The notes under the pieces: model-generated
Databases searched by the model: none
What the model was told of the DNA's origin: nothing
What the model saw: the letters and a program-made list of their open reading frames with translations, nothing else
Program-made: the position numbers and the translations under genes
Part shown: positions 39,584-57,289 of the stretch, piece after piece
Numbering within the stretch: the stretch's first letter is position 1
Layout of the letters: every line of letters begins with the position of its first letter
From: an uncultured Prevotellaceae bacterium
GTDB taxonomy: Bacteria > Bacteroidota > Bacteroidia > Bacteroidales > Bacteroidaceae
DNA length: 64,000 nt
Direction: 5' to 3'
Assembly (NCBI GenBank): GCA_946534585.1
Contig: CAMNCV010000137.1
Span: 1-64,000, forward strand

Positions 39584-42500
39584 ATGAAAAAACTAACTAC
39601 TTTTCTACTCTTGACGCTATTCGTTCTGACGATGCAGGCGCAGCGTGTCATTGACAATCTTGACCGTGGCGTCGTTGCTGTCAAGACCACTGGTGGCGTA
39701 TTCGTCAGCTGGCGTATTCAGTCTGATGAATACTATGATGTCACCTACAATCTTTATCGTGATGGTTCTCTCATTGCGGAGAATCTGAAAGTGTCTAACT
39801 TTACCGATGCCTCAGGCTCGACCTCAAGCAAATATACTGTTGCGGCAGTCGTCAACGGTGTAGTTCAGAAGCAGAGCCAGCCTGTCGCTGTATGGGCACA
39901 GGATTACATGGAAATTACTCCAAAGCATCCTGAAGAACTCAAGGCAACCTATGTCCCTAACGATGCCTGTGCTGCCGATGTTGACGGTGACGGCGAAGTG
40001 GAACTGCTGATGAAGTACAACAACTCACAGGAGATGTCAAACTCTTTCCCCGTTAATGGCTGGTTTAAAGAGCATACTCTGTTTGAGGTGACAAAGCTCG
40101 ATGGCTCTGTGCTTTGGTGGGTCAACTGCGGACCAAACATGGGTGACTTCCAGAACAATGAACAGAATATCGTAGGCTATGACTGGGATCAGGATGGCAG
40201 TGCAGAGGTACTCATGCGTCTTGAGGAAGGTTCAAGCATACACATGTTTGACGGCTCAGTTTATACTATCGGTGCCGATGGTAAGAATGGTACCGCATGG
40301 ACTAATTACCGCAGTCAGGGCTGGGTTTCTCCTGCTGGTGCGACTGCAGCGATTGAGACTGGTCTGTCATCTGCAGCGACGGCAAGCTGTCCAGCGGATT
40401 GGGTAACCTTAAGTATTGTTGATGGCGTGGTTTACGCTACCGCAGTAAAGAATGGAGATCCGAAGGAAAATCCGAACGTGACTACTACCGCACGTAGCAC
40501 TACAATTACTGTTGTTGACAATGGCGTGACTAAGAAATTCGGTTTCGGTCAGAATTATTACAGAGACGGAAAGGAAATCTCAGGTCAGTACTTTACCCAC
40601 TATGGCAAGGAGTTCCTCGTTTATTGTAATGGTGAGACAGGACAGATATACGACATTATTGACTTCCCTTGCGCACGTTTTGAATCAGGTGAGTCAAACC
40701 TCGAAGCTGCCTGGGGTGACGGCTATGGACACCGTTCAAGCAAGTTCTTCTACGGCGCACCTTACCTTGACGGACGTAATCCAAGCATCTTTATTGGTCG
40801 TGGTATCTACACCCGTCATAAGTTCGTGGCTTTGAATGTTGACAAGAACACCCACAAGCTCTCTGAACGTTGGCGTTGGATGAACAATCAGAAGGGTTCT
40901 CCATGGTATGGTCAGGGTTATCATAACTATGGCATTGCCGATGTTGACTGGGACGGTCGTGACGAAATCGTGTTCGGTGGTCTCGTAATCGATGATAATG
41001 GTATGGGTCTCTCTACCGCAGGATTCGGTCATGGCGATGCTCAGCATCATGGTGACTTCAACCCTTATATCCACGGACACGAGGGATGGTTCTGTAATGA
41101 GGAGCAGCCAAGCAACCACTATCGTGACCTTACTACGGCTAAGCTGTATTATCGTCTTGCAGGAGGTAGTGACGACGGACGTGCCATCGCCGGTAACTTC
41201 TGTAATACTGTGCCTGGTGCATTTGCATCATCTTCCAGAGATTCTGATAATCCAATCAGTCTCGTAACCAATGAACATGTAGCTGGTTATGATACCAATG
41301 GAATGGCACAGAACTTCAACTGTTACTGGGATGGTGACCTTTGCGAGGAAACATATAATGCTGACGGAACTAACTATGATAACAAACCAGGCGCTATCTA
41401 TAAATATGGAAGAGGTAAGATAAAGACGTTCGAGGGTTCGTTGGCAAACAACTGGACTAAGGCTACTCCTTGCTTCATGGGCGACATCCTCGGTGACTGG
41501 CGTCATGAGTTTGTAATGCGTACTGCTGACAACAAGATACGCATCTACACCACTACCATCGAAACACCATGGCGCGTTTACTCTATGTGGTACGACCACC
41601 AGCAGCGTAACGCTATGGTATGGCAGATGTGTGGATACAACCAGCCACCTCATACCTCTTACTTCCTCGGTGAGATGGAAGGCATCACTGCCGCTCCGCC
41701 TGCACTTACCATGAAAGGACGCACAGAGGTGAAGAACAATGGAACTATCAGCAATAACGGCGAGTCTGTCATCACTTGCGAGACAAACGACATGACCGTC
41801 AATGTCGCTGACGGTGCTACACCTTATATATATATAGACAACGCTCCGTCGTTGGTATCTGGTTCTGCTCCTTCCGAGGCTACTGCAAAGGAGTATCCTA
41901 TCACTTATAAATATTATACACACACCCTCACAGGCGGTGCCTTCGCTGGTGATATGCGTCTCGTGAAGCAGGGTGACGGTGCGCTGACTCTCCCTGATGT
42001 AGTGCAGACATATACTGGCCAGACCGATGTGTGGGCTGGTACGCTTAACTTCAACGGTACCTTGCAGAACTCACGCCTCTGGCTCAACCGCTTTGCAGAA
42101 CTCAACTCTGATGGCGGAACGTTTGCTAAGGGCATACAGGCAGAATATGCTGCCATCATCCGTCCTGGTGGTAAGGAGGCTAAGGCTTCTACCATAACCA
42201 CTGACTCGCTTATCCTTGATTTCGGCTCTGTCGTTGAACTCGATATCTACAGTGATGGCTTAAAGGCAGATAACCTCAATGCAAGCGTGCTGAAGATAGA
42301 GAAAAAGAACTGGACTAATGGTCCTCAGTACCTCGCGCCTATATTCCGCATCAATGCACATCCGGCAACAGGAGCGGCTGCTATCGCCGACGGCATTTAT
42401 TGCCTTGGTACAATAGGAGAAGTCAATGGCAGCCTCGATGATATAATCATTGAGAACCTCCCGGGAGCAAGAACGGTGTTGTCGCATGAAGACGGAAAAC

Positions 42501-44443
42501 TATATCTTGAGATAACCAACTATAGTGCAAAAGATCTTGTATGGATTGGTGATGAAAGCTCTGTATGGGAAAATGACGGAGCGGAAAACTTCAAGACGGC
42601 TGATGAAGGAGAGAAGAGTAAGTTCTATCATGGTTCAGAGGTTACATTTAATAATGATGCAGTAAAAACATCCGTAGAGATAAATGGACCGGTAAGTGTT
42701 AGGGCTCTTAATTTCGAAGGAACAAAATCCTTTACGCTATCTGGTGATAGCATTGTCGGAAATCCTGATGTGTACAAGACTGGAACTGGTAGTATAACTC
42801 TCAATAATGTTAACCATACGGGTAATACGACAATTGAGGGAGGATACATATTCGCTGGTTCTCTTGCTAATGAAATAGGTACAGAGTATGGTTCCCTTGG
42901 TTCTGTTGATAAGAGCATCACTCTTGTCAATAATGGTAAGTTAGGTGTCAACTCAACCATGACATCAGGACAGACTATTTACGTTGCTGAAGGTAACGGT
43001 ACATTAAATGTAGGTAGTAATGCAACATTCTCTCAGTCTGCAGACATTATAAGTGTAGGTGGAAACGCATTATATAAGGCAGGTGCAGGTACTCTTAATA
43101 TGCCAAGAAGATTCGGTGTTGATAAACTTGTTATTTCTTCGGGTAATGTCAATGGCGTAGATGATACTTTCTCTGATGATGTTACACTACCTAAGACGGT
43201 AGAGATTAGAAATGCTACGTACACTGATACTAACTCTGAAGGATCTAGTAGCATTAATCCTATCAATTGGCTTGTGCCGTCTGGATATACAGCAACATTG
43301 ATTATTGACCCAAGATGTAATTATACTGGTAAGCTTTCTGGTGCTGGTACCTTTGTGGTTACCGCATCGGGTGTACGTAGCTACCTACAGGGTGACTGGA
43401 GTGGTTTCGAAGGTGAGATTGACGCTCGTACCACTAAGCGCGGCAGTTATAATCCTATCTTCTGCTGGGATAATAACTATGGTTTGCCAAAGGCTGTGCT
43501 GAATGTGGGTTCTGGCTATACCTTCAATACAAATGGCAAGAATATAAATCTGCTTGCCTTTAAGGATGATGCTACCGGTACAATAACAGGTGGTGGCAAA
43601 ATAACTGTAGGTGCAGGGTACGATGCTAATATTTCATGTGCTAATGTCCTTGGTACTGCCGTTGTTTATGCTGGTGAACCTGACAGGCAGATTATATTCG
43701 CCAATGCTAATTGTGAGAATGTAAAGGCAAACTTCACAGTTCAGTCTGGTACATTGTATATACAAGGTACGAGCCGCGTTGCCAATCGGTTGACATTTAA
43801 TCCTTCATACATCACGACTGTAACAGGTAGTGGAATGATGTGTGGTCCGTATATGAAATTCGGTAATGTTGCAGTTTCAAATGGTGGTGTCTTGTCTATT
43901 ACAGGTGCTAATGATGCCTGGACTACTGCCACGGCTACATCCATACTTAATATCAGAAGTGGTGGTGTGCTGGATATGAAGATCACAAGTAACACACAGT
44001 GCTCAAAACTCAACTCAAGTAGCACACTTACTTTTTGGAATGGTTCAAAATTGAAGGTACGTCTTGCAGACGGCGTTACTCTTGCTAAAGGTAATACTTT
44101 TAAGCTTTGGGAAGTAGCTACAATATCTGGTAACGATACCAAGTGTACGGTGGAATTACCAGAGTTGCCTGATGGTCTTATTTGGGATAAGTCTGGTCTA
44201 TGGAATACCACAGGTGTTATAACAGTGATTGAAGATCCTACGTTTATATATGAGAATCTTGCGGATGACGTAGAGTTGACCGCAGATGTGTACTCACTTG
44301 ACGGTATAGCGTACGGACGTATTGTTACGACGAAGGCTGGTGTGCATGAGAGCGTCAGAAAACTCGTATCACAGCAAGGTAACTATGTCGTGAAATTCTC
44401 TAAAGGCACAATAACAGACAACATAATAGTTTCCGTTAAATAA
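39584..44443 (+). CDS. Rhamnogalacturonan lyase-like protein (PL11 type) fused to C-terminal autotransporter-associated beta-strand repeats
   Basis: RVIDNLDRGVVAVKTTGGVFVSWRIQSDEYYDVTYNLYRDG; NDACAADVDGDGEVELLMKYNN; VGYDWDQDGSAEVLMRLEEG; later SITLNNVNHTGNTTIEGGYIFAGSL-type repeats; C-terminal sorting-like tail GNYVVKFSKGTITDNIIVSVK. Confidence 0.85.
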   Translation: MKKLTTFLLLTLFVLTMQAQRVIDNLDRGVVAVKTTGGVFVSWRIQSDEYYDVTYNLYRDGSLIAENLKVSNFTDASGSTSSKYTVAAVVNGVVQKQSQPVAVWAQDYMEITPKHPEELKATYVPNDACAADVDGDGEVELLMKYNNSQEMSNSFPVNGWFKEHTLFEVTKLDGSVLWWVNCGPNMGDFQNNEQNIVGYDWDQDGSAEVLMRLEEGSSIHMFDGSVYTIGADGKNGTAWTNYRSQGWVSPAGATAAIETGLSSAATASCPADWVTLSIVDGVVYATAVKNGDPKENPNVTTTARSTTITVVDNGVTKKFGFGQNYYRDGKEISGQYFTHYGKEFLVYCNGETGQIYDIIDFPCARFESGESNLEAAWGDGYGHRSSKFFYGAPYLDGRNPSIFIGRGIYTRHKFVALNVDKNTHKLSERWRWMNNQKGSPWYGQGYHNYGIADVDWDGRDEIVFGGLVIDDNGMGLSTAGFGHGDAQHHGDFNPYIHGHEGWFCNEEQPSNHYRDLTTAKLYYRLAGGSDDGRAIAGNFCNTVPGAFASSSRDSDNPISLVTNEHVAGYDTNGMAQNFNCYWDGDLCEETYNADGTNYDNKPGAIYKYGRGKIKTFEGSLANNWTKATPCFMGDILGDWRHEFVMRTADNKIRIYTTTIETPWRVYSMWYDHQQRNAMVWQMCGYNQPPHTSYFLGEMEGITAAPPALTMKGRTEVKNNGTISNNGESVITCETNDMTVNVADGATPYIYIDNAPSLVSGSAPSEATAKEYPITYKYYTHTLTGGAFAGDMRLVKQGDGALTLPDVVQTYTGQTDVWAGTLNFNGTLQNSRLWLNRFAELNSDGGTFAKGIQAEYAAIIRPGGKEAKASTITTDSLILDFGSVVELDIYSDGLKADNLNASVLKIEKKNWTNGPQYLAPIFRINAHPATGAAAIADGIYCLGTIGEVNGSLDDIIIENLPGARTVLSHEDGKLYLEITNYSAKDLVWIGDESSVWENDGAENFKTADEGEKSKFYHGSEVTFNNDAVKTSVEINGPVSVRALNFEGTKSFTLSGDSIVGNPDVYKTGTGSITLNNVNHTGNTTIEGGYIFAGSLANEIGTEYGSLGSVDKSITLVNNGKLGVNSTMTSGQTIYVAEGNGTLNVGSNATFSQSADIISVGGNALYKAGAGTLNMPRRFGVDKLVISSGNVNGVDDTFSDDVTLPKTVEIRNATYTDTNSEGSSSINPINWLVPSGYTATLIIDPRCNYTGKLSGAGTFVVTASGVRSYLQGDWSGFEGEIDARTTKRGSYNPIFCWDNNYGLPKAVLNVGSGYTFNTNGKNINLLAFKDDATGTITGGGKITVGAGYDANISCANVLGTAVVYAGEPDRQIIFANANCENVKANFTVQSGTLYIQGTSRVANRLTFNPSYITTVTGSGMMCGPYMKFGNVAVSNGGVLSITGANDAWTTATATSILNIRSGGVLDMKITSNTQCSKLNSSSTLTFWNGSKLKVRLADGVTLAKGNTFKLWEVATISGNDTKCTVELPELPDGLIWDKSGLWNTTGVITVIEDPTFIYENLADDVELTADVYSLDGIAYGRIVTTKAGVHESVRKLVSQQGNYVVKFSKGTITDNIIVSVK

Positions 44444-44735: not shown

Positions 44736-47642
44736 ATGATTAAACGATTACTTTCTGGTGCAATGTTGGTTATGTGCACGTTGGGTGCGTTTGCTGACGA
44801 GTATCCTATTGGGACGCTCGTGTACTCAAGTGATGCGTGTTTCCGAATTGCTGGAGACAACCTTTTGTCGAATAGTGATTTTGCATCTGGTTTGACGGCG
44901 AATTGGACATCTATTAATGAGACGTCTTTGGACGAGGTGTTCAATGTTGAAGAAGGTGCTGGTCCAAGTGGAGAAAAAGCTATTGTTGCAAAAGGTGCTT
45001 CTTCAAATGGTTGTTATCAGGCTATACCTGTTGAAACAGCAGGAACCTATGTGCTTGTTCTGCAGATGAAAGGTTCTTCTGCGGGCTTTACACAAGCTTC
45101 AAGAAATGGTACGGCTCCTTTTGAGGCTGGTCAGAACTACATCAATCTTATTTTTAATAGTGATGGTTCTCCTGCCGGTACAACTGATCGTGTAGAGTTA
45201 CCTATAGGTGAGGGTGGCTCTTATGGTACTGATGGATGGACAACGATTTGTTTGCCACTCACTGTAAGCGGTGATGAAGTTCAGGGATATGTCATACCTG
45301 AGATTGCAGCGTTAGCAGAAGGCGTGCAGGTTACTAACGTAGAATTGCACGTCGCAACAAACGTGTTCGATACTCGTACTGCGCAGAATTTCAAAGACTA
45401 CTGTCAGACAATATATGACGGGTATTCATGGGCTAATGATCCAGTTTATGAAGCAGAAGCTGGTGCGCCTCGTGTGCAGATTTCTGAATTCCAGACAGCG
45501 TTGTCTGATTTGCAGTCAGCTATTGATGCAAATGAGGGCGTAGAAGGAAAAGTAGCTTCTCTGCAGACTGCTCTCAAAGCATTCCTTGTTGAGAATGCAG
45601 ATGAGATGTTGCAGTATTATGTAGAAGGAGATGGTGATGACGGATCACTGTCTTGGCAGTATTGGACTGGTAAGTTCAATAAATGTCAAACAGAGATGAC
45701 GGGCGGTCATGCTAATGCTTATTGGAACTTTAATACTGATCGTTGGTGCCATAAGGGTGGCGCAGCAAATACGGATTTGGGCGTTCAGTGGCAGACTAGA
45801 GCAAGTGGTGACTGGGATAATATCGCTACAGCTACAGTAAAACTTGAAAAGGGTACATATTTCTTCGGTTTTGAAGGAGATGGCGGTCGCGGTACAGCAA
45901 ACAAGAGTGATTGGCAACGTTCTAAGGCTGTCAAGGCAGCTTGGTTTCAATATTGGTTCAACGGAGATACTGTTGCAGCTCAGCCTCTTGATCCAGCATT
46001 GCGTATGCGCTTTATTCATGGATTTACTGTTGAAAGTGATACAACCGTGACTTTTGGTATCCGTTGTAATAATACAGAACCAACAGATCCTAATAACTGG
46101 AAGTCGGTCGGTTCTACAGGTATGTTTACTTCTTTCTATGCTCCTGTTCTCTATAAGGTGTATATCCCAGGTCTGTTTACAGAGGAAGAAAAGGCATATC
46201 TGCGTAAAGCGAAAAAGGAGACAACTACTCTTGCTTCTCTTCTGGAAACGTCTGATAAAGACTTGAAGGAGGATGCTTCTCGTCCATGGGGTAAGGATGA
46301 ATATCAGATTGGCTATAATGAAGTTAAGGGTTTGTATGATACTTGGATGGCACTCTCTGATGAGGATATTATTGCAGAGTTTAAGGATAATGACATGACT
46401 TTGGCTGATACTGTTAAAACAAAAGCACAAAAACCTATCAACTCATATAGAAATAATTGGCTAAATCTGAATAAGCCATTCACAAATCTTGTTGACTCTA
46501 TTGCTTATGCTAAGGGTATCTATGAGGATGCAACATGTGAGCTCTATCCTAACCGCGTAGCCTTGAATAGTGCCATAGAGGCTTCGCAGAAGGTATATAA
46601 TGATATTATTGGTGCTTCTACGTCGGAGTTCGTTCAGGCTGATTCCCTTTCTCTCGCAGAGGCTGCACACAATGTAATTGTTGCAGTTGACGACTTTAAG
46701 GCATGGCTCGCTGGTGAGGCAATCCTTGATATTGACTTTGAAAATGCTCCGGTTCAGAATGATGACGAAACTTATACCATAACTGGTGCTGTGGGTCAGA
46801 TGGACTTCCCAACTGCTTTCAGTACATTTGCAGAGGGTGCTGGAGCTGATGCAACAACTAACTTTGCCGTTGGTTATTGGAATGGCTCTGAAACACTGAC
46901 TCCTGGTATTCTTCGCGTAGGTAAGGGTACAGCTACAGCAGTTATTGCTGATGATAAGTTACCTGTAGTTGCTACTGCTGATACAGAGATTGGTTCTACA
47001 GTTGACCTCGTGAACGTAAGCTTCGACCTTTGGTATGGTAATTTTAATGGTGGTTTGACAACGTTCTCTCTTGTGGATACAGATGGTGAGGAAATCGTAG
47101 GTGGTACGTATGGTTGGGGAACACAGGTTGACCCACTTGGAATCGCATCAAAGATTAAGTGCGGTGGCGGTAGTGGTGTTAACAATAACCAGATCTGTGT
47201 TAACGCTTATAAGACACACATGGAGATCACTCTGAACTATGGCTCTCAGACAATGAGTTGCGCTGTATCAAATGGCACTAATGGTTCAATGACTGTTACT
47301 GATGTTCCAATGGCTTCTCCAAAGGCTCTGAAGACTTTCTCTCTCAGTTCTAACTTTGGTAATAGCGGTCGTCGCTCATGGTTCGATAACCTCAAGGTTA
47401 CTGTTGTAAGAGGTGGCGTGAAGGTAACAAACGTTCCTGGTGCAGAAGCTGCTTCAGGCGACGTAAACGGTGATGAATCAGTTACTATGTCTGACGCTAA
47501 CGCTATCGTGAACTACTACCTCGCTGAGGATAAGACAACCGTTACAGGCTTCAACGCTGATGCTGCTGACATGAACGGTGACGGAGATGTTACCATGTCT
47601 GATGCTAACGCAGTAGTTAATATGTACCTCGGTCAGGAGTAA
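44736..47642 (+). CDS. Large secreted protein with C-terminal dockerin type I-like duplicated motif
   Basis: Signal peptide MIKRLLSGAMLVMCTLGAFA; C-terminus GDVNGDESVTMSDANAIVNYYL...DMNGDGDVTMSDANAVVNMYLGQE (two DxNxDxxxxxxD loops, nt 47457-47639). Confidence 0.88.
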   Translation: MIKRLLSGAMLVMCTLGAFADEYPIGTLVYSSDACFRIAGDNLLSNSDFASGLTANWTSINETSLDEVFNVEEGAGPSGEKAIVAKGASSNGCYQAIPVETAGTYVLVLQMKGSSAGFTQASRNGTAPFEAGQNYINLIFNSDGSPAGTTDRVELPIGEGGSYGTDGWTTICLPLTVSGDEVQGYVIPEIAALAEGVQVTNVELHVATNVFDTRTAQNFKDYCQTIYDGYSWANDPVYEAEAGAPRVQISEFQTALSDLQSAIDANEGVEGKVASLQTALKAFLVENADEMLQYYVEGDGDDGSLSWQYWTGKFNKCQTEMTGGHANAYWNFNTDRWCHKGGAANTDLGVQWQTRASGDWDNIATATVKLEKGTYFFGFEGDGGRGTANKSDWQRSKAVKAAWFQYWFNGDTVAAQPLDPALRMRFIHGFTVESDTTVTFGIRCNNTEPTDPNNWKSVGSTGMFTSFYAPVLYKVYIPGLFTEEEKAYLRKAKKETTTLASLLETSDKDLKEDASRPWGKDEYQIGYNEVKGLYDTWMALSDEDIIAEFKDNDMTLADTVKTKAQKPINSYRNNWLNLNKPFTNLVDSIAYAKGIYEDATCELYPNRVALNSAIEASQKVYNDIIGASTSEFVQADSLSLAEAAHNVIVAVDDFKAWLAGEAILDIDFENAPVQNDDETYTITGAVGQMDFPTAFSTFAEGAGADATTNFAVGYWNGSETLTPGILRVGKGTATAVIADDKLPVVATADTEIGSTVDLVNVSFDLWYGNFNGGLTTFSLVDTDGEEIVGGTYGWGTQVDPLGIASKIKCGGGSGVNNNQICVNAYKTHMEITLNYGSQTMSCAVSNGTNGSMTVTDVPMASPKALKTFSLSSNFGNSGRRSWFDNLKVTVVRGGVKVTNVPGAEAASGDVNGDESVTMSDANAIVNYYLAEDKTTVTGFNADAADMNGDGDVTMSDANAVVNMYLGQE

Positions 47643-47680
47643 TTTCTTGAACAAGTAAAAAAAAATGTAAATCATAATAA

Positions 47681-47728
47681 CTCTCTGGTGGTGGCATAGC
47701 CACTCCAGTTATGACCATCGCTAGAGAG
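47681..47728 (+). other. Structured intergenic element between the dockerin and downstream secreted-protein genes
   Basis: CTCTCT (47681-47686) pairs with AGAGAG (47723-47728), enclosing GTGGC-ATA-GCCAC. Confidence 0.4.
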
Positions 47729-47792
47729 CATTTTATAACAGAACAGTGTGAATAACTTATTTATTAATTGTACAATTTAAAATCTTAAGATT

Positions 47793-48464
47793 ATGAAAAA
47801 AATTTACTCTATGATTGCAATGGCAGCTTTTGCTCTTGCTGCTAATGCAGAGATTACTACGGATGTAAGTACATTTAAGAATTATATGTATCTTTCTGTA
47901 GATGGCGACGTTAAAGCTGGTGAGGATAATACCTTCTATTTGAATATCGTACAGGATGGTGCAGGACAGACTATCGGTTGTGATAAAATTTCTTTCCCAG
48001 CAGGTTATGAAATTAAAAAATTTGTTGCAGTAAAGGATATATGGGCTCAAGACCCTGATACAGAAGAGTATTACCTTACTTTAAAACCTGCGACTATTTC
48101 TGGTAATACTTGTAAAATTGGTATTTTAGGTGGTGGAGCTGCTTCAAATTATACTGCGAAAGAAGGTAAGATCGCTAAGTTTACAGTAGCTGTTCCTGCT
48201 AATGCTGATGCTGTTTGTAATGCTACAATGGAGGGTGCAGAAGTATCTGTTTTAGAGTCATATCAGGCGGCACAAGGACTTCCCTATAATTATGAAAAGC
48301 ATGATGTAGCAATGACGTTCAATGTTACTGCTGCTGATGCTATTGAGACTGTAGCTGCTGATGGTACACAGGCTGCTGCTCCAGCAAAGAAGGTCGTTGA
48401 CGGTCAGCTCGTAATCGAGACTGCTAACGGTACTTTCACTGCTGCTGGCGCACAGGTAAAGTAA
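47793..48464 (+). CDS. Small secreted beta-rich protein with cohesin-like features and C-terminal sorting-like tail
   Basis: MKKIYSMIAMAAFALAANA signal; VDGDVKAGEDNTFYLNIVQDGAGQTIGCDKISFPAGYEIKKFV...GNTCKIGILGG...GKIAKFTVAVPANADAVCNATMEGAEVS; tail KKVVDGQLVIETANGTFTAAGAQVK. Confidence 0.5.
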   Translation: MKKIYSMIAMAAFALAANAEITTDVSTFKNYMYLSVDGDVKAGEDNTFYLNIVQDGAGQTIGCDKISFPAGYEIKKFVAVKDIWAQDPDTEEYYLTLKPATISGNTCKIGILGGGAASNYTAKEGKIAKFTVAVPANADAVCNATMEGAEVSVLESYQAAQGLPYNYEKHDVAMTFNVTAADAIETVAADGTQAAAPAKKVVDGQLVIETANGTFTAAGAQVK

Positions 48465-48481
48465 ATAATATCTAATATGTT

Positions 48482-48520
48482 TTTTGCCCCCTCCCGGTTA
48501 CGAGAGGGGGCAAAATTTTT
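48482..48520 (+). terminator. Strong intrinsic terminator after the cohesin-like gene
   Basis: ttttgccccctc-ccggttacga-gagggggcaaaa-ttttt. Confidence 0.92.
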
Positions 48521-48882: not shown

Positions 48883-48995
48883 CATAATCAAAAAGCCGTT
48901 CGAGTGCACCAATGATGTACTTGACGGCCGTTGATGCATATACTAACACTTTGACAATAAATAAAATAAAAATAAAACTAACTACTTCAATCTTT

Positions 48996-51887
48996 ATGAA
49001 AAAACTCATTTTATGGGTGTCGATGGTCAGTGTGGCTTTCGTTTCTTGTACAAAAGATTTATTAGTACCGGAGGAGGAAAAACCAGAATGGCTTGGTGGC
49101 ACAATCTATGAGGAGTTGCAAAATCCTGATCAACGAAAACTCACAGGTACGTTTAATACGTATCTTAGATTAGTTGATGATTTGGGATATGCAGAAGTCC
49201 TAGGACGTACGGGTAGTATGACTGCTTTCCCCGCTAACGATGAGGCTTTTAACCGCTTCTTTAATTCTGACAATGCTTTCGGTGTCAGTTCGTATGAACA
49301 GCTGACAACACCGCAAAAGAAGTTGTTACTTAATTCAAGTTTGCTTAAGAATGCATTGCTGACTTCGATGCTTTCAAACATTCCGCAGGGTGACAATAAT
49401 GTTAGTCGCGGACAGGCAGTAAAACATGAAACGAATGTCAGTGTTATTGACGATATTCAGTTCTTGTCAAACCGTGGAGTCATGCCTCAAGGGAATTCTT
49501 ATTGGGATGCACATGGTAAGACGGGGATCAATTGTGTATTTGATGCTACGGTACCAATGCTGTTTCACTTAACACGTGAGCAGATGCTCAACAATTATAT
49601 TACTACAGTGGGTACAGACTGCGATTTCGGAATATTGCGTGGGGAACCAGTTGGATATAATGTTGATAATGCTGACACTGCTTATGTTTTCCAGAATAAG
49701 ATACTGAACCAGGATGTAGTATGTCAGAATGGATACATACACCAGTTGACAAATGTGCTGGTTCCTCCTGGCAATTTAGGACAGGTGCTCAGGACAGAGT
49801 CCAATGCAAAATTATTCTCACGCATGCTGGATTATCATTGTGCGCCATATTATGATGCCACTACAACGAATAACTATAATTCATGGGCTCGTCAAAATGG
49901 TGCTCCGATACTTGATTCTATTTTCCAGGTTCGTTATTTCAGTACAAAATCTCAAGGTGGTGTAGGTAATACTACTGATCCTGACGGTTCAGGCGTAGCG
50001 TCAAATATGCGCCTTGATTGGGATCCAGGATGGAATCAGTACTACTCGTCATCTACTGCGGCAAACAGCCTTAATGATTTCGGCGCTATCTTTGTTCCTT
50101 CGGATGATGCCGTCATCGACTATTTTGTAAATGGCAGTGGTTCTGATTTCGTATCGTATTATGGTGTCAAGGGATTACCTAACACTCCGGAGAATCTTCC
50201 ACAGCATCTTGATTCTATTTTCGTTAACGGTAATGGTGTGATTACAAGTATTGTCAATAATCACATGAAGAGTTCCTTCGTAGCTTCTGTTCCAAGCAAG
50301 TTCCATACGCTGACAGATATCGGCTCTGGAGAGTTTATGGAAATCTCTGCAGCTAATCATTTGTTGCAGGTAGATGGACATTATGACGTTAAGATTGCAA
50401 ACAACGGTGTAATCTACAAACTCAATAAATTATTTGCCCCAGACGAGTTCCGTTCCGTTATAGGAGGAGCTTTGACACTTCCGAATTTCGATATTATGAA
50501 TTATTTCCTTTCTGATAAGAAGAAAGGAAGTGTGAACTCTGTTTTCGGTGCAGATATGTACTATTATCTCATGGCGATGAAATCTCATTATGCGTTCTTT
50601 ACAATGCATGATAATGATTATGCTAATCCTATAATTGATCCGGTATCGTTGGGATGGTCACAGCCAAGAGCATTGTCTTTCTATACATATCTTGAGCCAC
50701 AGATAAATAAAAAGACTGGTGAGATATTCCGCTATGATCGAAAGTATGCCTTGAAGGCTTATCCTTTCAACCCTAAAACGGGTGTTATCAATTATTCACG
50801 TTCAAATGATTTAGGACAGATTGCTGTAAACGGTAATACCAGCTTTGCTTCTCAGGTATGTGATTATTTGGATTATCAAACAGTTGTGCTTGAAAGCAAC
50901 AGTTTCTATGGAGAAGGTAATAATAATCACTATTATCTGACAAAGAACGGTGGCGCAATATATGTCACAGGTGCTGGTTCAGAAAGTGATTGCGTAGGCA
51001 GAGTCTATGGTGGTGCTCAGTTGGCACATCCAGATAATCTGCCTGCTTCAAAGATCAAAGAACGTTCGCTTAAGGAAAACGGTTTCTCACTTGTTCTGGA
51101 TAGGCCAATACAGACGGCTTATGGAAGTGTGTATTCTTTCCTAAATAATAATAAAGACAAGTTCTCTGAATTCCTTGAACTATGTGCCGCGGTTAGTAGC
51201 ACGACCTATTTGAATTGGGTACGTATCAAGGATACGGCTCCTTCAAAGCAGAATTCTTATCGTATATGGAATGATACGCTTGCTATACAAGGTGATGCGA
51301 ATGTACGTTTCTTTAATGGTTATAATTATACATTGTATGCACCAGACAATGAAGCGGTAGAAAAAGCATATGCAATGGGACTGCCTACGCCTGCACAACT
51401 GGAAGCTGTTATAAATGGTGATTATTCTAGTTCGGAGTTAAAGGCTGCGCGTGAATTGGCTGCTGACATGATTGAACAGATGCGTGCATTCATACGTTAT
51501 CATTTCCAAAACAATTCTGTTTTTGCAGATAATTATCTTCCTGCAACATCTTATCAGTCTATGTATTCGTCAGATTTGGGTATAGCCTCAAATATACGAG
51601 TGTCAAGTCGCAATGGAGTGCTATCTGTTACGGATGTATATCGCGCTTCTCAGGGCTTGAGTCCTCTGACAATTACGGCAGAAAACTTGAATGATGCCAC
51701 GAAGGCAACAGAAAAAATCGTAAATAAGATGACACGTGATATTCAGTATAATGTTGATGCCAAGAGCGCCACATCATTACTTAGTTCGTCATTTGCGGTT
51801 ATTCATCAGATTAGCACTCCGCTCTGTTATTCCGCAAGTGGACGCTATGACGAAATAAAGTGCCCTTCTTCAAATCGAGATGATTAA
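48996..51887 (+). CDS. Fasciclin (FAS1)-domain surface lipoprotein
   Basis: Lipobox VSVAFVSC; LTGTFNTYLRLVDDLGYAEVLGRTGSMTAFPANDEAFNRFF is FAS1-like; further FAS1-like segments (YTLYAPDNEAVEKAYAMG). Start moved to ATG at 48996. Confidence 0.8.
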   Translation: MKKLILWVSMVSVAFVSCTKDLLVPEEEKPEWLGGTIYEELQNPDQRKLTGTFNTYLRLVDDLGYAEVLGRTGSMTAFPANDEAFNRFFNSDNAFGVSSYEQLTTPQKKLLLNSSLLKNALLTSMLSNIPQGDNNVSRGQAVKHETNVSVIDDIQFLSNRGVMPQGNSYWDAHGKTGINCVFDATVPMLFHLTREQMLNNYITTVGTDCDFGILRGEPVGYNVDNADTAYVFQNKILNQDVVCQNGYIHQLTNVLVPPGNLGQVLRTESNAKLFSRMLDYHCAPYYDATTTNNYNSWARQNGAPILDSIFQVRYFSTKSQGGVGNTTDPDGSGVASNMRLDWDPGWNQYYSSSTAANSLNDFGAIFVPSDDAVIDYFVNGSGSDFVSYYGVKGLPNTPENLPQHLDSIFVNGNGVITSIVNNHMKSSFVASVPSKFHTLTDIGSGEFMEISAANHLLQVDGHYDVKIANNGVIYKLNKLFAPDEFRSVIGGALTLPNFDIMNYFLSDKKKGSVNSVFGADMYYYLMAMKSHYAFFTMHDNDYANPIIDPVSLGWSQPRALSFYTYLEPQINKKTGEIFRYDRKYALKAYPFNPKTGVINYSRSNDLGQIAVNGNTSFASQVCDYLDYQTVVLESNSFYGEGNNNHYYLTKNGGAIYVTGAGSESDCVGRVYGGAQLAHPDNLPASKIKERSLKENGFSLVLDRPIQTAYGSVYSFLNNNKDKFSEFLELCAAVSSTTYLNWVRIKDTAPSKQNSYRIWNDTLAIQGDANVRFFNGYNYTLYAPDNEAVEKAYAMGLPTPAQLEAVINGDYSSSELKAARELAADMIEQMRAFIRYHFQNNSVFADNYLPATSYQSMYSSDLGIASNIRVSSRNGVLSVTDVYRASQGLSPLTITAENLNDATKATEKIVNKMTRDIQYNVDAKSATSLLSSSFAVIHQISTPLCYSASGRYDEIKCPSSNRDD

Positions 51888-51935: not shown

Positions 51936-54900
51936 ATGTCAAGAATAAAGATTTTTCTGATGCTGATACTATGCGTGTTCGCTCAATTTGTGATGGCGCA
52001 GGGTACGGTGATATCTGGTACTGTGGAGGATGCCATGGGACCGGTTATGATGGCTAACGTCACGGAGCGCGATGGCAATGACCGTATCGTCAATGCTACG
52101 CAGACGGATATGATGGGTAACTTCTCGATGGAAATCAAGAATACCAAGAACAAACTCGTCGTTTCTTTCGTAGGTAGTAAGACCTGGAAACAGGTAATCG
52201 GAGAACAAACTACCTTCGCAATCAAACTGGAGGATGAGAAAACTACTCTTAATGAAGTGACTGTGCGCGGACGTCGTACGGGTTCTGGTGGTTTGAATAT
52301 TCCAAAAAATGAGGTGACGGTATCTCAGCAGACTTTCAACCTCTCTGACGTGGAAGGTATGGCATTCACATCAGCCGACGAGGCATTGCAGGGTGAGATT
52401 GCCGGTCTTGATATCGTAAGTAACTCAGGAAACCTTGGTTCCGGTACGACTATGCGTTTGCGTGGTGTAACAACCATTAATGGTAATGCAGAACCACTTA
52501 TTGTCGTAGATGATAAGATATTTGATAACCCAGACGCATCTTTTGATTTTACAAATGCTACTGAAGAAGAATATTCTTCATTACTGTCTGTAAATGTGGA
52601 GGATATAGCAAAGATTGATGTCCTTAAAGATGCAGCGGCAACAGCAGTATGGGGTTCCAAGGGTGCCAACGGTGTCATCATGATTACCACGAAGCGTGGT
52701 TCAAGAGGAAAACCACGCGTGAACTTTTCGTACAAGTTAACAGGCACTTGGCAGCCGGAAGGCTATAAACTTCTTAACGGTGATGAATACACCATGCTGA
52801 TTAAGGAGGAGTACTATAACCCTAATCAGTCTTCTACTGCAACCTCTAACATCCGTGAGGTGAACTATGATAAGTCATGGGCTGACTATGAGAACTGGAA
52901 TAACAACACTGATTGGGTAGATGCAGTCAAGCAGTTTGGTGCTATGCACTCATGGAACCTCAATGTCTCTGGTGGTGGTCAGAAGGCCCAGTTCCGTATC
53001 TCTGGCGGTTATGACCATCAGACGGGTTCTATAATAAAGCAGAAACTTGATAGATTATCTACGCGTCTGGTGCTTGACTATAATGTCAGTGACCGTATCA
53101 GGTTCTCAACAAATTTTGCTCTTACATATACGAACAATGTACAAAACTATACAGGTTTGCTTGGTATAGCACAGAAGCTTGCGCCAAATATGTCAATATA
53201 TAGACAGACAGCAGACGGTCAGGATACAGGTGATTACTATATTATGAATCCAGAGGGTACATTAAATGCCAAGACACCATATGTGGGAAACTATTCTTCG
53301 TATGAGTTGCGGGCTATACGTAATCTTGGAAACCCTATAGCTTATGCTAATATGTCTTGGAAGAAAGACCAGACATATCGTATCACTCCTGATTTCAATA
53401 TCAAGTATGAGTTACTTGGAACTGATGTAGGTCAGCATCGTTTGACATTTAATGGACGTGTAGATTTTGATATATATGCACGTTCAGTACCTTCATTCTG
53501 TTCTGCTGGTATTTCAACGATTACTTGGAATGACATGAATTCCTATAATTCTGTTGACAATACAGAATCAAATCGTCTCAAGATTGGTGCTCGAGCAGAA
53601 TTGATTTTTACACCTTATTTCAAGAATGAGGATTTGAGCTTGACTATGCTGGCACGCTATGAAATGAGTACACAACGTAGTAATTCACAGTACATACGTC
53701 AATACTCACTGCCTAATGGTATCACATCACCTACCGTTGATGCTGCGTTATATTACAAGGATGGTACACATGACGGTTTGTCAAGTGGCAATAGCCGTGC
53801 AAATTCACAAAACTGGATATATAATGCCCACTTCTCATACAAGGGACGTTATAATGTAGGTTTCTCTTTGCGTGCTGATGGTGACTCAAAGTTCGGACCT
53901 ATGCAAAAATGGGCATATTTCCCAGGTGTTTCTTTGCGATATAATGTAAGTGACGAGAAATTCTTTGAGCCTGTGAAGAAATACGTATCTATGCTTGGAT
54001 TACGTGCTTCTTGGGGCATCGTAGGTAAAGCACCAGATTCAGACTATCTTTTCTATAACACGTACGTTACGGGAGCAAGTGGCGCTTACGGCAACTACGC
54101 TTATATGGATGGCTTGAAACTTGATAATCTGCGCTGGGAGAAGACTACGTCATACAACCTTGGTTTCAACCTCGGATTGCTCAATGATATGATAGAGATA
54201 GACTTTGACTACTATCATAAGGATACTAAAGACTTGTTGATGCAAAAAGTAGGAATACCTTCTACTGTCGGCTATCCGACACTGGCATACCTAAATGTTG
54301 GTGCGATGAAGAATGATGGATGGGAAATCAACGTTAATGCAAGAAAGTTCATCAAGATTGGAAAATTCTCCGTTTCTGCTGGGTTTAATTTAGCACAGAA
54401 TTACAATGAGATTACAGAAATGGATCAGCGTGTGCTTGATGTCATCAATACAGACTGGTCTGCCACCGTGCGTGGATATACAAAGAATGAAACAGGCTCT
54501 ACATCTTTCTTAAATCATATACAGACAGGTAATCCTTTGGGTTCTATCTATGGTTTCCGATTCAAGGGAGTATATCAATATACATACGACTACTTGAAGA
54601 ACTATAAGACTGAGAATGGACTTTCAGATGCAGCCTTTGAGACTTGGCTTAATAACGAGGTGGCTTCAGGCAAGACCTTCCCCGTTGTGCTTGGTACAGA
54701 TGGAAAGGTAATCATGCAGCCAAATGGTATGCCACAGCGTATGGTATATAATTATAAAAATGGTAAAAGTACATACGAATTCCAAGGTGGAGATGCTATA
54801 TATGAAGACATTAACCATGATGGTCAGATTAACGATTTGGATATTGTTTATCTTGGTAATTCTATGCCGAAATTAAGTGGAGGTTTCAATTTCACGTTCA

Positions 54901-55367
54901 ACTATGGAAACTGGAGTGTTAAAACTCGTTTCATGTTCCGTTGGGGCAATAAGATTATTAATGCTGCACGTATGAATCTTGAATCTATGTCAACAGCTTA
55001 TAATCAAACATCAACCGTAAATTGGAGATGGCGTAAGGACGGCGATGTGACATCGATACCACGTGCTATCTATGTATATGGCGATAATTCTGCTTACAAT
55101 TTCCAAGGATCAGATCGCTTCGTTGAGGATGGTGCTTTCTTGCGTTTCCAAAACTTGCAGATTTCATATAATTTCCCCAAGAAGCAAATAAAGAAGTGGG
55201 GATTGAACCAATTGCAGATTTATGGTTCAATGAACAATCTGTTCTGCTGGACCAAATATTCAGGTGTGGATCCTGAGATTGCCACAGGTGGATGGGGACT
55301 TGCAATTGATAACTCATCTACACCGCGTGCTAAGTCGTTTACGGCAACCATTTCTGTTGGTTTTTAA
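51936..55367 (+). CDS. SusC/RagA-type TonB-dependent outer-membrane receptor
   Basis: VISGTVEDAMGPVMMANVTERDGNDRIVNATQTDMMGNFSM; IDVLKDAAATAVWGSKGANGVIMITTKRG; GGFNFTFNYGNWSVKTRFMFRWGNKI. Confidence 0.96.
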   Translation: MSRIKIFLMLILCVFAQFVMAQGTVISGTVEDAMGPVMMANVTERDGNDRIVNATQTDMMGNFSMEIKNTKNKLVVSFVGSKTWKQVIGEQTTFAIKLEDEKTTLNEVTVRGRRTGSGGLNIPKNEVTVSQQTFNLSDVEGMAFTSADEALQGEIAGLDIVSNSGNLGSGTTMRLRGVTTINGNAEPLIVVDDKIFDNPDASFDFTNATEEEYSSLLSVNVEDIAKIDVLKDAAATAVWGSKGANGVIMITTKRGSRGKPRVNFSYKLTGTWQPEGYKLLNGDEYTMLIKEEYYNPNQSSTATSNIREVNYDKSWADYENWNNNTDWVDAVKQFGAMHSWNLNVSGGGQKAQFRISGGYDHQTGSIIKQKLDRLSTRLVLDYNVSDRIRFSTNFALTYTNNVQNYTGLLGIAQKLAPNMSIYRQTADGQDTGDYYIMNPEGTLNAKTPYVGNYSSYELRAIRNLGNPIAYANMSWKKDQTYRITPDFNIKYELLGTDVGQHRLTFNGRVDFDIYARSVPSFCSAGISTITWNDMNSYNSVDNTESNRLKIGARAELIFTPYFKNEDLSLTMLARYEMSTQRSNSQYIRQYSLPNGITSPTVDAALYYKDGTHDGLSSGNSRANSQNWIYNAHFSYKGRYNVGFSLRADGDSKFGPMQKWAYFPGVSLRYNVSDEKFFEPVKKYVSMLGLRASWGIVGKAPDSDYLFYNTYVTGASGAYGNYAYMDGLKLDNLRWEKTTSYNLGFNLGLLNDMIEIDFDYYHKDTKDLLMQKVGIPSTVGYPTLAYLNVGAMKNDGWEINVNARKFIKIGKFSVSAGFNLAQNYNEITEMDQRVLDVINTDWSATVRGYTKNETGSTSFLNHIQTGNPLGSIYGFRFKGVYQYTYDYLKNYKTENGLSDAAFETWLNNEVASGKTFPVVLGTDGKVIMQPNGMPQRMVYNYKNGKSTYEFQGGDAIYEDINHDGQINDLDIVYLGNSMPKLSGGFNFTFNYGNWSVKTRFMFRWGNKIINAARMNLESMSTAYNQTSTVNWRWRKDGDVTSIPRAIYVYGDNSAYNFQGSDRFVEDGAFLRFQNLQISYNFPKKQIKKWGLNQLQIYGSMNNLFCWTKYSGVDPEIATGGWGLAIDNSSTPRAKSFTATISVGF

Positions 55368-55387
55368 ATTAAAATGCTTTCACAACA

Positions 55388-57289
55388 ATGAAAAAGATAC
55401 TAACAATAATATTTTCGGCTTTTACACTTGCATCATGTGTTGATACTATTATCTTACCAGACGATAAAACCGTCGAGGAAGATTTCTGGAAGACACAAAA
55501 TGATGTGGAAAAGATGGTGAATGGAGCATATACGGCTTTCGCCTGTCAGGGTGTGCAGGAACGTTTAATCGTTTGGAATTCTCGTTCTGACGAGTACACG
55601 GTAAATACTATGCTGCAAAACTCAAATCTTAATCAGATTTATACAGCTGATATGCAGACTGATAACGGATATAATAGCTGGGGAGATTTTTATACTTGTA
55701 TTAATAGGTGTAATCAAGTGATACAGAAATCGCCCAATGTTATGAAGTTAGATCCAAACTATCTTGAGGGTATTCATAATAATTATGTAGGACAGATGTA
55801 TGCCTTGCGTGCAATGTGTTATTTCTACCTAATTAGAGCATTTCATGATGTCCCGTTGATACTTCAGCCATATAATGAAGCATCTCAGGAAATGAATGTA
55901 GAACAGGTTGCTCCTGGTGTCGTCCTTACTCAGATTATCAATGATCTTGAACAGGCAAGGAACATGGTTATTAGTTCGCAGGATCAGTCGTTGTCCAGCA
56001 TGGAACGTGCTTGCTTCTTTACACAAGATGCAGTACTTGCACTTCTTGCAGATGTGTATTTGTGGAAAGCTTCTGTGTATAGGGATATGCAAGCATATAC
56101 GCGTTGTGTGGAACTGTGTGAGCAGATTCATGTTAATCGTAAGAATGCACACGGTCCACGTATAGGTGATATATACATGGCAGAAGACGACGATTACTTT
56201 TTATACAAGTATAATCGTTACTATAATGTGTTTAGTGCAATAAATGATGAGACAATATTTGCACTGGCATATGATGACAACGTGGGATTGCGTAATTCGT
56301 ACTATACAACAGAGAAGAACAAGGCTGAAAAGCAATATTTCTATACTAATACAGTGTATTCTGTAACAGGTGAAACTCCTGCAAGTGGCTATGCGTTCTT
56401 GAAAGATAAAGACGGAAACCTTACGGATGTCCGTTGTTTTGAGAGTGTTTTCTCTTACGGAGCGGCAACGGAAAAAATAGGTATTCGTAAGTATGTGGCA
56501 GAACAAGGACTACTTTATCAGAACCAGGCTGAAAAAGGTACTTCTCGTGACTTCTCTCCATATGCGGTGGACTTTAATATCTATCGTATAACTGATATTA
56601 TGACAATGCATGCAGAAGCATTGGTGCAGCAAGGACGTTTGATTCTTGAAGACGATGCAGAACTCATAGATGCATTGGATGCAGCTACGACGCTTGAAGA
56701 TTCTTTGACTATTGCGAAGAAAATACGTGAAACGAATGATATAGTGTCAAAGAAATATGTAAAGGCGGCTCATCTTGCACAGATTGTAAGTGAACGTGCT
56801 AGTACAAGTGGTAAGGCATCAAATGGTATAGATTCAACAAAGGTGGCAGTTTCTGGTGGCAATTTAAAAGAAGAGCCTACTGATGAAGAGAAACGCGCAT
56901 ACATAAGCACACAAGTTTCTAATCATAACACTTTACTTGTTCCAACTGCAACAAAAGACCTTGAGTTGCTTATAATGGCAGAGCGAGCTAGGGAATTGTG
57001 CTTTGAGGGTAAACGCTGGTATGACATGATGCGATATAATTATCGACATACGGAGATGCCTGCTAATTATGATGCTACTCTCTTTTCTCAGCCTGCATTG
57101 AAAAATAATGATGTTTTTCTTTCATACATTAAGAAAAAATATTCTGGTAATGCGGGTGTCACTGTGACTATGCGTTTGGCAACAGAGCCATATTTGTATA
57201 TGCCTATATATAAGAATGAGATGGATGTTAACTCACTGCTCATACAGAATCCTGTATATAAAGATAATGAGACATCTTCAAAGAACTAA
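55388..57289 (+). CDS. SusD/RagB-type nutrient-binding lipoprotein
   Basis: Lipobox FTLASC; immediately follows susC-like gene; YVGQMYALRAMCYFYLIRAFHDVPLIL; LELLIMAERARELCFEGKRWYDMMRYNYRH. Confidence 0.95.
   Translation: MKKILTIIFSAFTLASCVDTIILPDDKTVEEDFWKTQNDVEKMVNGAYTAFACQGVQERLIVWNSRSDEYTVNTMLQNSNLNQIYTADMQTDNGYNSWGDFYTCINRCNQVIQKSPNVMKLDPNYLEGIHNNYVGQMYALRAMCYFYLIRAFHDVPLILQPYNEASQEMNVEQVAPGVVLTQIINDLEQARNMVISSQDQSLSSMERACFFTQDAVLALLADVYLWKASVYRDMQAYTRCVELCEQIHVNRKNAHGPRIGDIYMAEDDDYFLYKYNRYYNVFSAINDETIFALAYDDNVGLRNSYYTTEKNKAEKQYFYTNTVYSVTGETPASGYAFLKDKDGNLTDVRCFESVFSYGAATEKIGIRKYVAEQGLLYQNQAEKGTSRDFSPYAVDFNIYRITDIMTMHAEALVQQGRLILEDDAELIDALDAATTLEDSLTIAKKIRETNDIVSKKYVKAAHLAQIVSERASTSGKASNGIDSTKVAVSGGNLKEEPTDEEKRAYISTQVSNHNTLLVPTATKDLELLIMAERARELCFEGKRWYDMMRYNYRHTEMPANYDATLFSQPALKNNDVFLSYIKKKYSGNAGVTVTMRLATEPYLYMPIYKNEMDVNSLLIQNPVYKDNETSSKN

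Follow-up and report, generated by a model that had tools for sequence, protein, structure and literature searches.

A divergent cohesin beside a dockerin gene

The 64,000-nucleotide window analysed here (positions 1 to 64,000 of contig CAMNCV010000137.1, assembly GCA_946534585.1, from an uncultured Prevotellaceae bacterium) contains a gene for a secreted protein of 968 amino acids with a C-terminal dockerin, followed by a gene for a secreted protein of 223 amino acids. Judging from its predicted fold and from profile-profile comparison, the latter is a divergent cohesin of the Bacteroidota that standard searches miss. We estimate at about two in three the probability that it binds the dockerin of its neighbour and serves as a receptor for the dockerin-tailed proteins of the genome. 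The source genome (G000), of a rumen-type Prevotella, is a metagenome assembly of 2.86 Mb in 180 contigs, 85.9% complete, and belongs to the same genus as most of the relatives searched. An original prediction, made by eye, had proposed that the two proteins form a two-part surface display module, and both open reading frames as well as all the motifs quoted for them are present.

The 223-residue protein carries a Sec signal peptide but lacks a lipobox. Compared as a single sequence with Pfam, NCBIfam and the sequences of the PDB, it gave chance matches only; with the curated Pfam cohesin model (PF00963), the only cohesin model to which this result refers, it stayed below the cut-off, without a match at E ≤ 1. 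A match to PF22660 (E 0.028) was dismissed as chance. Whole-genome searching retrieved one close homologue, of 230 amino acids, in the sister species G001. Identity between the two amounts to 94.7% in the signal peptide, 81% in the tail and 34% in the core, and the core is about 20% identical to fragments from the rumen metagenome-assembled genome (MAG) Prevotella sp. Tb.RUG.131.

The comparison of families was more informative. A profile of 18 Prevotella cohesins, which itself matches solved cohesins of the PDB (best E 5.6e-12), was aligned using hhalign with a two-row profile consisting of the G000 protein and its G001 homologue. This yielded a score of 48.6 (E 8e-8), while 200 column shuffles reached at most 17.5 and the reversed profile 11.3. 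The 223-residue protein without its homologue scored 20.4, a value within the shuffles and not significant. Since neither the single-sequence searches nor the single-sequence hhalign comparison were significant, it is the two-row profile and the fold that carry the case for cohesin homology.

Structure prediction (AlphaFold2) from the two-row alignment gave well predicted core strands, and cohesins accounted for nine of the 14 PDB matches at E ≤ 0.001; the mean predicted local distance difference test (pLDDT) score was 61 for the best model and 31-38 for the remaining ones. After addition of ten remote Prevotella cohesins (12-row alignment), all five models converged at a mean pLDDT of 75, with most of the core at 82-95, and the top 12 PDB matches returned by Foldseek were cohesins (E 4e-6, template modelling score on the target up to 0.70). 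Integrin beta-sandwiches appeared further down both Foldseek lists. The likeness to cohesins noticed by eye in the original prediction, invisible to sequence searches of Pfam, NCBIfam and the PDB, was borne out by the predicted fold and the profile-profile comparison; the check for an unrelated fold proposed along with it was run and returned a fold matching cohesins.

The C-terminus of the 968-residue protein is a genuine type I dockerin, as had been claimed from its duplicated motif. Pfam Dockerin_1 (PF00404) matches residues 908-962 with 41.6 bits against a gathering cut-off of 22.9 (E 8.7e-12 in the whole-genome dockerin search), and the translation holds two repeats, DVNGDESVTMSD and DMNGDGDVTMSD, each of which fits the calcium-loop pattern DxNxDxxxxxxD. 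No lipobox was found in this protein, and its body outside the dockerin had no Pfam match. Its orthologues are 56% identical in G001 and 30% identical in Tb.RUG.131.

Conservation of the gene pair and dockerin repertoire

The order of a dockerin gene followed by a cohesin gene is conserved in two locus types and three species. In G001, the entire block of lyase, dockerin protein, cohesin-like protein, fasciclin protein, SusC and SusD is syntenic with the window. In the third species, Tb.RUG.131 (loci L150-L153), contigs break within the gene for the cohesin-like protein, which is apparently present in two near-identical copies that cause the breaks. Both 5' halves lie directly behind a TM[AS]DAN dockerin gene. 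One of the 3' halves precedes fasciclin, SusC and SusD genes, which is the locus type of the window; the other precedes another dockerin gene (CotH type), followed by a gene for an 827-residue protein. The signal peptides of the two copies differ and the start of the core is the same, which points to homogenisation of the core and suggests, as far as contig ends of an unfinished sequence can be read, a recent duplication or a gene conversion.

The search for other dockerin-tailed proteins, which had been advised in the original prediction, was extended to the whole of G000 and returned 26 dockerin matches above the Pfam cut-off. Nearly all of the 48 repeat units read in them carry TM[AS]DAN in the recognition helix, as expected if one partner is common to all of these dockerins. 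The corresponding DNA pattern occurs in 47 copies in G000 and 61 in G001, and in 0 or 1 copy elsewhere among 299 genomes of the genus; widening the sample to 398 genomes added only one genome, with two copies. A profile search of the same 299 genomes found convincing full-length members of the 223-residue family in G000 and G001 only. A weak match on contig C113 was discarded, as it sits in another coding frame. This joint occurrence of the TM[AS]DAN expansion and the 223-residue family is suggestive.

The proteins bearing these dockerins include C10, S8 and M6 peptidases, a pectate lyase, leucine-rich repeat (LRR) adhesins of the BspA type, and CotH, RCC1 and fimbrillin-like proteins. No cellulase was met among the dockerin proteins read, and searches of this 86% complete genome with PF00963 and with the Prevotella profile revealed no multi-cohesin protein. 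The set is one of mixed surface proteins and does not have the inventory of a cellulosome.

Other cohesins in the genus

Cohesins above the curated Pfam cut-off were present in 62 of the 299 sampled genomes. Among them are small proteins that end in a type IX sorting tail and adjoin dockerin genes. The clearest precedent, encoded beside a dockerin protein at locus L121, is 220 amino acids long; its Pfam cohesin scores 42 bits, and its type IX sorting domain scores 32 bits against a cut-off of 23. Counted by hand, 14 of the 20 Prevotella cohesin loci that were inspected adjoin a different dockerin-bearing gene. The architectures seen in the genus (loci L090-L139) comprise cohesin-dockerin, cohesin-dockerin-cohesin-sorting tail and single cohesin-sorting tail.

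Within G000, the PF00963 search pointed to contig C43 only, with a sub-threshold match. The protein concerned (L077:4211-8797) has 1528 amino acids and combines InlB-type repeats, a cohesin, PKD and LRR domains and a type IX-like C-terminal tail. In the stretch read, its gene lies away from dockerin genes, and its neighbours encode LRR and PKD proteins.

C-terminal tails and type IX secretion

The last 43 residues of the 223-residue protein form a module that recurs, with 9, 7 and 7 matches at E ≤ 1 in three related genomes, and that was found at the extreme C-terminus of every protein whose end was read. Its consensus is ...K-x-V-K-[DN]-G-x-L-V-I-E-T-A-x-G-x-[FY]-x-A-x-G-A-x-[VI]-K, and it is carried by otherwise unrelated secreted proteins (positions 48333-48461 of the window; loci L037 and L154-L166). 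The sorting-like tail of the original prediction is confirmed to this extent as a recurring C-terminal module; no match to a type IX sorting domain was obtained. An assignment to the known type IX sorting domain (type A) was considered and found no support in profile comparison.

The type IX translocon gene sprA is present in G000 (SprA TIGR04189, 2541 bits). The PL11-type lyase encoded upstream of the dockerin gene ends in a type IX-like tail that scores 16.9 bits, below the cut-off of 23. A similar tail occurs in the G001 lyase, and the orthologue in Tb.RUG.131 (L151:3412-8328) ends in a dockerin, as if the two kinds of C-terminus were exchangeable. Passenger-associated (autotransporter-type) repeats were observed in both the lyase of the window (39584-44443) and that of Tb.RUG.131.

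Genetic context

Pfam and NCBIfam matches of the window proteins place the dockerin and cohesin-like genes within a polysaccharide-utilisation locus (Table 1). Its SusC protein contains, at 54801-54863, a single EF-hand-like dockerin half-motif with a weak score in the dockerin model.

Table 1. Coordinates of the features described, in window positions
Feature	Position	Strand	Basis or remarks
Rhamnogalacturonan lyase, PL11-type, upstream, weak type IX tail	39584..44443	+	Pfam
968-residue secreted protein, Sec signal peptide, C-terminal dockerin	44736..47642	+	Open reading frame, Pfam
Type I dockerin, two EF-hand-like repeats, recognition motif TMSDAN	47457..47639	+	Pfam PF00404
Intergenic RNA hairpin, 20-bp, no T-run behind, between the 968- and 223-residue protein genes	47676..47735	+	Generic for G000
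223-residue secreted cohesin-like protein	47793..48464	+	Open reading frame, profile comparison, predicted fold
Cohesin-like beta-sandwich core, about residues 20-180	47850..48332	+	AlphaFold2, Foldseek, hhalign
Conserved C-terminal tail, 43 residues, candidate sorting or attachment signal	48333..48461	+	Family absent from Pfam and NCBIfam
Fasciclin-domain protein, same polysaccharide-utilisation locus	48912..51887	+	Pfam; syntenic in G001 and Tb.RUG.131
SusC and SusD pair, same polysaccharide-utilisation locus	51936..57289	+	Pfam, NCBIfam; syntenic in G001 and Tb.RUG.131

In clostridial cellulosome operons, an intergenic hairpin sets the stoichiometry of cohesin and cargo. A comparable role for the hairpin between the two genes was considered and dropped, because such structures are about as frequent behind non-dockerin genes of G000 as behind dockerin genes. 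Orthologous gaps in the relatives likewise contain hairpins. Strong 3' hairpins (at least 14 pairs, no T-run) stand behind about one third of the G000 genes with long intergenic gaps.

Proposed function and alternative explanations

Once exported, the 223-residue protein would hold dockerin proteins at the cell, as a small receptor or adaptor on the surface. In the presence of calcium, it would bind its 968-residue neighbour by that protein's TM[AS]DAN-type dockerin and, by way of the same recognition motif, about 25 other dockerin-tailed secreted proteins of G000. Because so many other proteins carry the same dockerin type, a shared receptor is more likely than a private partner of the 968-residue protein, and the picture is wider than the two-protein module originally put forward. 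From that module, the cohesin homologue and the conserved dockerin-cohesin gene pair stand. Binding between the two proteins is a proposal, and so is attachment to the cell of a protein that has neither a lipobox nor a demonstrable type IX sorting domain in its tail. We can only infer surface anchoring, because the tail matches no known type IX sorting domain, and retention through this conserved tail is suggested tentatively.

Several observations weigh against a role of this protein as dockerin receptor. Its core scores below every curated threshold. It also diverges strongly (34% identity between G000 and G001, about 20% with the Tb.RUG.131 fragments), in contrast to the constant dockerin motif, and thus shows no obvious conserved face for binding. 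The tail has no TIGR04183 or PF18962 match, and its profile comparison with the type IX sorting domain was not significant. A second cohesin of the same genome, that of the 1528-residue protein (E 4e-13 with the Prevotella profile), may be the real partner. Finally, the co-occurrence of motif expansion and 223-residue family is not independent evidence, since G000 and G001 are close relatives.

The divergence of the core could mean that the protein has a cohesin fold and does not bind dockerins, being a fast-evolving surface beta-sandwich (an adhesin, a glycan-binding protein or an antigen) that merely adjoins a dockerin gene. A core so much less conserved than the signal peptide and the tail is typical of diversifying surface proteins, relatives with a cohesin fold exist without known dockerin binding, and integrin beta-sandwiches do figure in the lower Foldseek ranks. 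We nevertheless hold this to be unlikely: the family adjoins dockerin genes repeatedly, in both locus types and all three species, the best structural matches of its model are dockerin-binding cohesins, and most of the cohesin loci inspected in other Prevotella genomes have a different dockerin gene beside them. It is also conceivable that the TM[AS]DAN dockerins are received by another cohesin, for instance that of the 1528-residue protein or one from another species of the community, and that the 223-residue protein is specialised or vestigial. The strong profile match of the former and the type IX-like tail of its protein fit such a role, but its gene lies apart from dockerin genes in an LRR/PKD neighbourhood, and it is the 223-residue family that tracks the TM[AS]DAN dockerin expansion, which leaves this proposal a slim chance.

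Orthologous lyases end in a dockerin in one species and in a type IX-like tail in the other two, SprA is present, and the classes of protein bearing dockerins are of a kind that often carries type IX tails. This raises a further question, namely whether dockerins of this lineage need any cohesin. They might be calcium-stabilised C-terminal caps, or export signals read by the secretion machinery. However, cohesin homologues adjoin dockerin genes, and the uniform motif of the recognition helix exceeds what calcium loops alone require; we consider this explanation very improbable. A Bacteroidota-specific display system linked to type IX secretion can also be imagined for Prevotella, in which small cohesins with a C-terminal signal would carry or hold dockerin proteins that lack sorting domains, possibly through co-export of the complex. 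One fast-evolving cohesin would here serve about 25 cargo proteins. So broad a scheme is speculative, and rather unlikely in this full form.

Relation to known systems

Surveys of the rumen have repeatedly recorded dockerins of Bacteroidetes without cohesins. MAGs bearing dockerins and no recognisable cohesins were reported, and it was proposed either that none is needed or that the cohesins are too divergent to be recognised (PMC7260996). The role of Prevotella dockerins was described as "not defined" (PMC7480376), and a study that mentions cohesins in some Bacteroidetes also lists bins of this group that have 11 dockerins but lack a cohesin (PMC6071333). Among rumen cohesin proteins, 79 of 80 were assigned to Firmicutes, and the remaining one to an unknown bacterium (PMC6785717). 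No description of a Prevotella cohesin partner was found in the openly accessible literature, to which our reading was confined; subscription papers may contain an earlier one. A divergent cohesin beside a dockerin gene, together with the Pfam cohesins present in 62 of 299 genomes, supports the second proposal of PMC7260996. The 223-residue cohesin is a testable candidate partner for the unexplained dockerins of the phylum, and their role becomes directly accessible to experiment with two small soluble domains.

The orphan dockerins of rumen Bacteroidetes (PMC7260996, PMC7480376, PMC6071333) resemble those described here in phylum, in type of habitat and in their C-terminal position, some of them near polysaccharide-utilisation loci; the difference is that those studies had no recognisable Bacteroidetes cohesin or left the role undefined, and that a candidate partner is identified here. 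Type IX cargo (TIGR04183, PF18962) likewise consists of secreted proteins in genomes with SprA, some Prevotella cohesins bear the sorting domain, and orthologues swap it for a dockerin. The tail of the 223-residue protein, in contrast, is a different and undescribed module.

Among non-cellulosomal proteins with a cohesin fold, the cohesin-like modules of Clostridium perfringens glycoside hydrolases (2w1n, 2jh2, 2vo8) were among the best structural matches. They are embedded in large enzymes, whereas the 223-residue protein is secreted as a domain on its own, followed by a conserved tail. The cellulosomes of Clostridium/Acetivibrio and Ruminococcus (single-cohesin anchoring scaffoldin ScaE, PDB 2zf9; cohesins 6kgc and 5lxv) share with the G000 system the type I dockerin of two calcium-loop repeats at the end of secreted proteins, the cohesin beta-sandwich, and a candidate receptor at the cell surface in the form of a small protein with one cohesin. 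The G000 system differs in being that of a Gram-negative member of the Bacteroidota, in its SusC/SusD locus and in having no sortase or S-layer homology anchor; its cohesin is sub-threshold, its cargo consists of proteases, adhesins and a pectate lyase, and its dockerins carry the TM[AS]DAN motif.

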